A stretch of 64,000 nucleotides of DNA from Fibrobacter sp. Lineage in GTDB: Bacteria > Fibrobacterota > Fibrobacteria > Fibrobacterales > Fibrobacteraceae. Location: the NCBI GenBank assembly GCA_017412605.1, contig JAFPWY010000009.1, forward strand, positions 186,001 through 250,000. The letters are read 5' to 3'. Shown here one piece after another: positions 43,617 through 47,465 of this stretch (the first letter of the stretch is position 1; each line of letters opens with the position of its first letter). Both the position numbers and the translations under genes were made by a program. Under the pieces are notes generated by a model, which saw only the letters and a list, made by a program, of their open reading frames with translations, searched no databases and was not told the DNA's origin.

Positions 43617-44978
43617 CTATCGCCTTGTGGCGCGAGGCAGCTCGGAAGCGTGCTTTTCTTGCCAAATGGCTTCGAGCTGAGCGCGTTCGGCCTCGGTAGC
43701 CCAATCGGAATCCGGAAATTCCTGCACGATAATGCGATAACGGGTCGCAGCGGAATGGAAATCGCGCAGTTCACGGTAGATGTTGCCCATCTGGAGCATC
43801 GCGAAATAGCGTTCCTCGGGTTCAAGTTCCAAATCCAGGAGTTCCTTGTACATCTGCAACGCCGGCTCCAAGTTGCCAGCCTTGAAAAGCATGTTGGCAA
43901 CTTCAATCGTCGGACCGCCATCGGATACGGGAGCAGACTTCTTCTTCGGAGCCTTATCCTTGGGTTCCTTCTCCACCTTGGCTTCCACCTTTTCCTGCAC
44001 AGGCGCAGCGGGCTTTTCGGCCTCGGGTTTGGCCTCGACCGCATCACCGCGCAATTCAGCCAAACGGCTTTCAGCTGTAGCACGGAACACAGCACTCGGT
44101 GCAGCTTTTTTCAGGTAAGCTTCCAAGTATTTCTTTTCCAATTCCTTGCGTTTACCTTTCTCATAAACAAGAGCGAGGAAATAGTTCGCGTCGTTACCGC
44201 GATCTTTGTATGTAATGCCCTTCTTCAGGTTATACTCGGCCTTGTCGTATTCGCCCAGTTCAAAGCGAGTCAGGCCGGCATAGAAATACGCACCCGGATC
44301 ACCAGGACGCTTGGCCAAGATTTCCCTCCAGACCGGGACAACTTCCTTGTACTTGCCCTCATCGAACAAAGTCTTTCCTTTTTCGAACAGTTCTTCGACA
44401 CTAGACTTCGCAGCAACCGCAGGTTCCTTTTCCGGTTCGGCCTTGACTTCCTTCACGGGTTCCGGCTTCGACTTCACGGGCGCAGCCTCCTCGGCAGGCG
44501 ACTCCGCCCTTCTCTCGGCAACCTTCGCGGGTTCCGTCTTGGGCTCTTCCTTCACCGGTTCGTTTTTCACTTCCGGTTCGGCAGGAGCGGCAGCTTCCGT
44601 CACAGGATTGTTCTTCGGGTCCTTCGCACGTTCGGCTTCAGCCTTGGGCTTCTGGCCCAGCGCTTCGTAAACCCTGGCGGCCCCTTCATAAGCCTCACTC
44701 ATCGACGGATTGTAGCGGTAAGCCAAGCGGAAGTTGGCAAGCGCACCGCTGTAGTCCTTCATCTTCATGCGGACCTGGGCGGCCAAATAGTAAGCCTCGG
44801 AATTTCTCGGGTCATCGGCCAGTATGGAGCGATATTCCCCGAGGGCCATTTCGTATTCCCCCTTCGCCTCGAAGCGGGCACCCTGTTCAACACGCGGGTC
44901 GGCGGCCAAAGCCGCAGAAAAACCAATCAATACAGCAAAAGAAACAATAGACGCAGACGTGAAAAAACTTCTATCCAT
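43617..44978 (-). CDS. Exported TPR-repeat protein with Lys/Glu/Pro-rich middle
   Basis: A 453-residue protein with a signal peptide (MDRSFFTSASIVSFAV, cleavage near ALAA). TPR units at about 27-125 (ARFEAKGEYEMALGEYRSIL, YYLAAQVRMKMKDYSGALANF) and 205-300 (LFDEGKYKEVVPVWREILAK), and a last set near 365-450. Between them lie long charged linkers (EPEVKNEPVKEEPKTEPAKV and PEAEKPAAPVQEKVEAK). Likely a periplasmic scaffold, in the style of YbgF/CpoB or BamD-like TPR proteins, but no specific partner is shown. Confidence 0.85.
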   Translation of the reverse strand: MDRSFFTSASIVSFAVLIGFSAALAADPRVEQGARFEAKGEYEMALGEYRSILADDPRNSEAYYLAAQVRMKMKDYSGALANFRLAYRYNPSMSEAYEGAARVYEALGQKPKAEAERAKDPKNNPVTEAAAPAEPEVKNEPVKEEPKTEPAKVAERRAESPAEEAAPVKSKPEPVKEVKAEPEKEPAVAAKSSVEELFEKGKTLFDEGKYKEVVPVWREILAKRPGDPGAYFYAGLTRFELGEYDKAEYNLKKGITYKDRGNDANYFLALVYEKGKRKELEKKYLEAYLKKAAPSAVFRATAESRLAELRGDAVEAKPEAEKPAAPVQEKVEAKVEKEPKDKAPKKKSAPVSDGGPTIEVANMLFKAGNLEPALQMYKELLDLELEPEERYFAMLQMGNIYRELRDFHSAATRYRIIVQEFPDSDWATEAERAQLEAIWQEKHASELPRATRR

Positions 44979-45281
44979 ATGAGCTAATTTAGAAAAAGAG
45001 TACAAAGCCCCGAAAGAAGCCACTACTCAAAAGGCACCTAAAAACGGGAAAAACTGAGCAAAATGAAAACAAATACAAATTCAAGCCCAGCAGCGGCGCG
45101 TTTTATTTTGAAACACCGGAAATGGCAGCTCCGTTTCATTTTTGTACACTGAGCAGGATTTCAATAGGTTATTCGCCCGAAAAAGAGCCGTAGGCTAAAA
45201 GTTAAAAGCAAAAAATCTGCCAACGCACCTCAAAAAGCCACAAAAAGGAATAAAATGGCGAAAAAAAGAGAATTTCACGTT
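44979..45281. other. Gene-free region upstream of groES
   Basis: About 300 bases between the TPR gene and the groES promoter. I see no reading frame with coding character, no tRNA and no CIRCE operator (TTAGCACTC-N9-GAGTGCTAA). It is A-rich, with CCGGAAATGGCAGCTCCG near 45117 as a weak inverted repeat. Confidence 0.5.
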
Positions 45282-45298
45282 TTGGCATGGAATTTGCT
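45282..45298 (+). promoter_or_regulatory. Sigma-54-type promoter of groES-groEL
   Basis: TTGGCATGGAATTTGCT matches the -24/-12 consensus TTGGCAcG-N4-TTGCa at every position but two, with exact GG to GC spacing. The predicted transcription start is near 45310, leaving a leader of about 80 bases to the groES ATG. Confidence 0.6.
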
Positions 45299-45388
45299 TT
45301 GAAGGGGACGAACAACAAAAGCCCCCAATGGGCAAACGTTTTAACAATGGGCGAAATAAGGACGCCCGCAAAAAAGAGGTAAAATAAA

Positions 45389-45670
45389 ATGATCAAGCCT
45401 TTAGCAGATCGAATCGTTGTCAAGCCGGCAGAAGCCGAAAAGAAGACCTCCTCGGGTCTCTTCATTCCGGACAACGCCAAGGAAAAGCCCATGCAGGGCA
45501 AGGTCGTGGCCGTGGGCCCGGGCCGCAAGAATGACAAGGGCGAACTCGTCGCTATGGAAGTCAAGGTCGGAGACGAAGTGTTGTACGGCAAGTACAGCGG
45601 CACCGAAGTCACCGTCGACGGCGAAACCTACCTCATCGTGAAGGAATCGGACGTTATCGCTACTTTGTAG
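45389..45670 (+). CDS. groES: Co-chaperonin GroES
   Basis: A 93-residue GroES (Hsp10): [20 protein letters not shown], the mobile loop [20 protein letters not shown] and the [14 protein letters not shown] strand. It caps the GroEL ring in assisted folding. An AGAGGTAAAA site precedes it. groEL follows, but after 160 bases filled with a repeat element. Confidence 0.97.
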
Positions 45671-45800
45671 CATAAGAGAGACTAGAGATTAGAGACTAGG
45701 ATTTAGTGAATAAGAATCACGCACTTTGTGAGTCTAAAACGGATGGCAAAGCCATGATTTTTTTCTCTAGCCTCTAGCTCCTAGATCCTAACCCCTAAAA
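45671..45800. repeat. Composite inverted repeat element between groES and groEL
   Basis: Left heptads GAGACTAGAGATTAGAGACT (45677-45696), then ATCACGCACTTTGTGAGTC and GATGGCAAAGCCATGATT palindromes, then right heptads CTCTAGCCTCTAGCTCCTAG (45763-45782) in the opposite sense. The whole block is roughly self-complementary and matches the order of the cluster at 25898-26037. Confidence 0.75.
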
Positions 45801-45809
45801 AAGTTTTAA

Positions 45810-47465
<1,656 letters not shown>

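Follow-up and report, generated by a model that had tools for sequence, protein, structure and literature searches.

The window, i.e. the whole 64-kb stretch of DNA that was analysed (G000:C9:186001-250000, from a Fibrobacter genome of 3.53 Mb in 15 contigs), carries the genes for groES and groEL and, divergent from them, a gene for a TPR-repeat protein; the features of this locus are collected in Table 1. The start codon of the TPR gene is uncertain, the protein having 453 residues if it begins with the ATG at residue 16.

Table 1. Features of the groES-groEL locus, in coordinates of the window.
Feature	Position	Strand	Remarks
Divergent TPR-repeat protein gene, 468 aa from GTG	43617..45023	-	Pfam TPR families
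Enhancer-like palindrome GTTTTATTTTGAAAC, 11/12 to GTTTCANNNTGAAAC	45100..45114	.	183 nt upstream of promoter element
Second, weaker palindrome copy GTTTCATTTTTGTAC, 9/12	45133..45147	.	33 nt from first copy
Divergent sigma-54-like element TTGGCAGATTTTTTGCT, 11/12	45207..45222	-	Faces TPR-protein gene
Sigma-54 -24/-12 element TTGGCATGGAATTTGCT of groES-groEL	45282..45298	+	Exact sequence; 12/12 in 23/23 genus loci; conservation peak
Conserved initiator-like block GGACGAACAAC, consensus GGGCGAAACAA	45306..45316	+	Second conservation peak; predicted start near 45309
groES, 93 aa	45389..45670	+	Pfam Cpn10, E 1.6e-36
groEL, 544 aa	45831..47465	+	Pfam Cpn60_TCP1, E 2.4e-81

The first-pass annotation of this DNA had proposed a GG-N10-GC element about 90 bases before groES, and the 17-mer is found exactly there: TTGGCATGGAATTTGCT has precise GG-N10-GC spacing and forms a complete sigma-54 -24/-12 element, with TGGCAY at -24 and TTGCW at -12, and 90 nt separate its last base from the groES ATG at 45389. 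It fits TGGCAYRNNNNTTGCW at 12/12 specified positions and is the sole match without mismatches in the window. At up to two mismatches the window holds 40 matches where 27 are expected, i.e. weak TGGCAYRNNNNTTGCW-like matches are common; in the whole genome, a scan for -24/-12 sites of the kind that the annotation had suggested as a check turns up 18 perfect copies of the pattern, whereas the reversed pattern, taken as a control, has 3.

The groES gene was searched in 41 genomes, and 30 upstream regions were read, 23 from the genus (this genome included) and seven from outside it; left out were G002 and G016 within the genus (contig edge, or a paralogue only) and nine of the 16 outside genomes, among them G025 and G026 of the same order, two of the nine having no groES match. 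The 12/12 element occurs in 23/23 genus loci, placed at -82 to -121 relative to the groES start codon, and in 0/7 loci outside the genus (one of which, L037, has just 112 nt upstream); in this and the other conservation counts the relatives are non-independent samples. When the genus loci are aligned on the element and compared in blocks of 8 nt, identity reaches 0.80-0.85 within the element itself, against 0.41 in the adjacent block and 0.28-0.34 further upstream. By these alignments the groES element is under selection, the 12/12 match having been kept while its flanks drifted to background identity, and that it is a real sigma-54 promoter we regard as nearly certain. The proposal that sigma-54 transcribes groES-groEL is supported by the genus-wide retention of the element, by the presence of rpoN and of activator genes, and by an enhancer-like palindrome upstream.

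In the genus loci identity peaks a second time (0.56-0.64) some 24-39 nt past the beginning of the element, and the GGGCGAAACAA-like block within this peak fits the transcription start, which is expected about 12 nt beyond the GC of the -12 box. The leader further contains two short hairpins (45321-45333 and 45348-45368 on the plus strand), the first of which is kept in most relatives with its bases changed yet paired (GTCC/GGAC vs GCCC/GGGC); folding of the groES leaders yields a mean z-score of -1.9 (n=23), with 13 below -2. On the minus strand, the divergent element TTGGCAGATTTTTTGCT is present in 7/23 genus groES loci, including 3/3 that have the TPR gene as a neighbor. The groES-groEL spacer (45671-45830) contains AGAGACTAGAGATTAG / CTCTAGCCTCTAGCTCC-like repeat sequence and a weak terminator-like hairpin at 45743-45755, and the htpG leaders of relatives carry repeat-like inserts that resemble these spacer repeats. 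A known structured RNA in 44900-45900 was considered and rejected, as the four Rfam matches (E 0.57-0.98) come from unsuitable families and score far short of the gathering thresholds.

Bacterial heat-shock control is usually classed under RpoH, HrcA/CIRCE, CtsR, HspR, and RNA thermometers. The first-pass annotation had seen neither CIRCE nor a clear sigma-32-type promoter at groES, and both observations hold at wider scope: a search of the genome for CIRCE with as many as three mismatches finds no copy, and the window contains no match to CTTGAA-N12-18-CCCCAT. There is also no match to a sigma-70-type promoter in 44900-45900. The gene for HrcA is found neither in this genome nor in any of 37 Fibrobacter genomes or the two same-order genomes (G025, G026), and is present in 14 of 21 more distant ones (12/13 of the same class and 2/8 other members of the phylum). 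The best CIRCE score at groES is 9-12 of 18 positions in the 23 genus loci, against 16-18 of 18 in all seven loci read outside the genus, whose groESL genes are apparently regulated by HrcA/CIRCE, as judged by these matches. For Fibrobacter groES, an HrcA/CIRCE regulon was rejected on the missing hrcA and the low CIRCE score, and so was an RpoH (sigma-32) regulon, as the best TIGR02392 score among the three proteins compared, 152 bits, falls far short of the cut-off of 323 and the window has no sigma-32-like site. The RpoH test took in the three RpoD/RpoH-sized members of seven sigma-70-family proteins and left out four smaller ones; the three, all RpoD-like sigma factors, fall far under the RpoH cut-offs.

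The genes for sigma-54 transcription are present. The rpoN gene, whose absence would have refuted the earlier proposal, is intact, with its activator-interacting, core-binding, and DNA-binding domains all above cut-off (PF00309, PF04963, PF04552), and seven strong PF00158 genes supply candidates for the enhancer-binding activator that such a promoter was said to need. Nineteen sigma-54 sites were read in this genome, 18 exact and one at 11/12, and six of them precede chaperone-related genes by Pfam identity: groES, grpE, dnaK-dnaJ, secA, clpB, and htpG. The last is not an independent pick, since its site was found via a search for the palindrome. A CGNAA-like motif follows 9-10 nt past the element in 9/19 sites, including 6/6 of these chaperone/secA promoters. 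Further exact sites stand before the genes for P-II and what we take to be an ammonium transporter, for glutamate synthase, and for type III glutamine synthetase, which indicates that in this genome, as in others, sigma-54 has a role in nitrogen control. Another, without a palindrome, lies directly before the gene for a 280-aa RpoD/RpoS-like sigma factor (L062 / L184, G000:C11:372746-373139, minus strand), which suggests a sigma cascade.

The same arrangement is not confined to groES, where the first-pass annotation had seen the promoter element, but is common to grpE, dnaK-dnaJ, htpG, and secA; clpB has the sigma-54 site and lacks the palindrome. In relatives, the dnaK element is present in 30/30 Fibrobacter loci (28 at 12/12, 2 at 11/12), whereas the 50 remaining loci of the 80 have no match of 11/12 or better; the DnaK of this genome is 100% identical to that of Fibrobacter succinogenes MAGs. 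The htpG element is present in 20/20 genus loci read (15 at 12/12, 5 at 11/12). For grpE, secA, and clpB the sites were established in this genome, and those of grpE and secA are known in relatives from the scan matches described below. The gene secA, which is not usually counted among heat-shock genes, has the sigma-54 site together with the palindrome in this genome (L053) and in five scan matches from relatives (L304, L307, L309, L315, L318).

The palindrome, GTTTCANNNTGAAAC, accompanies the promoters of groES, dnaK, grpE, secA, and htpG, usually upstream and at variable distance. Upstream of the groES element it occurs at 10/12 or better in 23/23 genus loci, where 0.58 are expected from shuffles, and at 11/12 or better in 21/23, where 0.035 are expected. 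With at most one mismatch this genome has 13 copies against 6 in the control, and six of the 13 are at groES, grpE, dnaK (two), secA, and htpG. At 11/12 it marks 5/6 chaperone/secA sigma-54 sites of this genome and 0/13 of the others (Fisher P 5e-4), or 4/5 against 0/13 with htpG left out (P about 0.002); among the sites at other genes, L060 has a pair of 10/12 copies. Among Fibrobacter dnaK loci, 29/30 have the palindrome, and the thirtieth has just 105 nt upstream. At htpG its position is instead downstream, 52-53 nt from the start of the element, with a match of 11-12/12 in 20/20 loci (L066, L279-L298).

At groES the best palindrome is found anywhere between 47 and 220 nt upstream of the promoter, varying among species, a pattern to be expected of enhancer-binding proteins that act by looping but not of activators or repressors of the ordinary kind. 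It is usually present in two copies, with spacing classes of 21, 28-33, 39-41, 50-54, and 61 bp, i.e. at near-whole helical turns (resultant 0.69 at 10.5 bp over 23 loci). When 15 distinct spacings were drawn at random 20000 times, the resultant was never as high as 0.656; given the simplicity of this null and the relatedness of the loci, the periodicity is supporting evidence only.

A scan by motif only, for sites where a degenerate palindrome and the element are 10-40 nt apart, across 41 Fibrobacter genomes, returned 53 matches in 32 genomes against 0 for the reversed control. Forty-four of them were opened (42 distinct ones plus the dnaK and secA sites of this genome), the genes in relatives being recognised by their likeness to the Pfam-identified proteins of this genome. 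Forty precede chaperone or secA genes (20 dnaK, 13 grpE, 6 secA, 1 groES), three stand before unrelated genes and have poor palindromes, and one ran off its contig.

Taken together, the main chaperone genes of Fibrobacter appear, from their upstream sequences, to use sigma-54 and a common enhancer motif in place of the usual heat-shock controls. We consider it very probable that groESL, dnaK-dnaJ, grpE, htpG, and secA share a control by sigma-54 with one palindrome-binding activator. Sigma-54 RNA polymerase would rest as a closed complex on the -24/-12 element, and a dedicated enhancer-binding AAA+ activator would bind the GTTTCANNNTGAAAC palindromes, often as pairs, at sites usually 20-220 bp upstream or, in htpG, downstream by about 52 bp from the start of the element; it would then loop to the polymerase and open the complex by ATP hydrolysis, the whole taking the place held by HrcA/CIRCE in the other Fibrobacteria examined. 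We infer the start sites, the binding of the activator to the palindrome, the looping, and the induction by heat or misfolded protein, as well as, solely from the genes involved, the membership of a heat-shock regulon. GroEL is normally required at all times, so the activator would never be fully off, or a further promoter would be present.

Several observations count against a single regulon of this kind, besides the constant need for GroEL: clpB is without the palindrome, the palindrome of htpG is downstream of the promoter, where a repressor would fit as well, 3/44 opened scan matches are at unrelated genes, and autoregulation links the palindrome to no activator gene. The first two also speak for an alternative that keeps the sigma-54 promoters as real but makes the palindrome an operator, bound by a separate repressor or accessory factor, with an activator that needs no specific upstream sites; in all 20 htpG loci the palindrome indeed sits at a fixed distance inside the expected leader, a repressor-like place. 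Activators of the sigma-54 class can, for their part, act from downstream as well. The varied distance of the groES palindromes, which suits looping activators, and the near-whole helical turns between paired copies argue against the operator, and we think this alternative unlikely.

Less likely still is a coupling of the chaperone genes to the activators of P-II/ammonium transporter, glutamate synthase, and glutamine synthetase, with a signal of nitrogen or growth and not of heat: the exact sites before these genes in the same genome would provide for it, but the palindrome is at none of those promoters, and no nitrogen promoter is among the 44 opened scan matches. As for a chance origin, by which an A+T-rich leader happens to spell a -24/-12 match, the frequency of weak matches in the window makes it worth raising, but the excess of exact matches in the genome speaks against it and the element kept in every genus locus amid diverged flanks already contradicts it; its probability is negligible. 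Shared control by sigma-54 and a palindrome-binding activator is the reading we retain.

Candidates for this activator were compared in six further Fibrobacter genomes and four from outside the genus (G025, G026, G027, G031), two of which, G027 and G031, are among those whose groES loci were read and have no sigma-54 site. Of 60 fetched activator loci, ten did not pass the motif filter and do not figure in the ortholog table; by score they are probably of the L045 or L046 types, which have altered GAFTGA loops (GALVGV and GAFAGA, respectively). The L041, L042, and L043 types are present in 6/6 Fibrobacter genomes, L040 and L044 in 5/6. L042 has an ortholog of 84% identity in G026, and relatives of L041 extend beyond the genus; L043 has orthologs of 61-76% identity in Fibrobacter and none in the four outside genomes compared. 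It is this distribution, throughout the Fibrobacter compared and nowhere outside, unlike L041 and L042, that favors L043 in the ranking.

L043 is an activator of 445 residues (gene at G000:C1:14684-15172), whose orthologs adjoin, in relatives, genes that are presumably rho-like and proC-like. Its N-terminal ~120 residues have no Pfam match and no Pfam-detectable receiver domain, and a profile comparison with the N-terminal domain of L041 found no relation (hhalign probability 0.4%), which makes the label of a degenerate receiver for this region a guess. The L041 orthologs, for their part, show Glu at the expected phospho-accepting Asp of the receiver domain in 7/7 aligned sequences (position by eye), and loops of the GSYTGS/GAYTGS/GSFTGS type in place of GAFTGA. 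No palindrome at 11/12 or better is found near the genes of L040-L044, nor near L045 and L046, which were covered within about 1.5 kb; no activator gene was found with the palindrome in its promoter, so that autoregulation ties it to none of them. On its distribution, the L043 product is the leading candidate for the activator of the chaperone regulon, at somewhat less than an even chance. In a bolder version, sigma-54 would have taken charge of the core chaperone response as a whole: groESL, dnaK, grpE, and htpG would have no promoters other than the -24/-12 elements, an activator of the L043 family, restricted to the genus and with a novel N-terminal domain, would sense folding stress directly, rpoN would therefore be essential, and HrcA repression would have given way in one lineage to a strictly ATP-dependent, enhancer-driven response; this is conceivable, but we lean against it as a whole.

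Sigma-54 has been connected with chaperones and heat-shock genes elsewhere. The groESL3 operon of Bradyrhizobium has a sigma-54 promoter under NifA; it is, however, an extra, symbiotic copy co-regulated with nitrogen fixation, whereas in Fibrobacter it is the main groES-groEL copy, throughout the genus loci read. HsfA of Myxococcus is an NtrC-type activator. The two-component system HsfA-HsfB is said, in a 2002 title by Ueki and Inouye, to activate the heat-shock gene lonD in Myxococcus xanthus. There, one protease gene is concerned, and here a core chaperone set with a shared palindrome; moreover, the candidate L043 has no Pfam-detectable receiver domain, unlike the two-component HsfA-HsfB.

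Bacteroidota belong to the FCB group. The NCBI taxonomy places Fibrobacterota within this group. In the promoter-matrix survey of the aRpoNDB study of 2025, a group of GroEL/GroES/GrpE/DnaJ/DnaK/IbpA is enriched among the predicted sigma-54 targets of Bacteroidota and Planctomycetota (PMC12316311). For the sigma-54 dependence of genes in B. thetaiotaomicron and F. psychrophilum this study cites its reference 80, whose title concerns nitrogen recycling in Blattabacterium. Fibrobacter does not occur in its main text, and its passages on these predictions mention neither an enhancer motif nor a candidate activator, nor that HrcA has been lost. Among open-licence PMC papers we found none on sigma-54 control of Fibrobacter chaperones. 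Sigma-54 control of chaperones is known in outline; what looks new is the genus-wide regulon, together with its palindrome and the replacement of CIRCE.

The present findings provide independent support for the in-silico suggestion made for Bacteroidota and Planctomycetota. A genus that appears to run its core chaperone genes via sigma-54 and one enhancer motif would add a route to those recognised for heat-shock control, and would offer a case of regulator replacement, with CIRCE in the other Fibrobacteria read, and sigma-54 with the palindrome in Fibrobacter. For these rumen cellulose degraders, whose regulatory biology is sparse, it would mean the gain of a defined regulon, a putative binding motif, and a candidate regulator.
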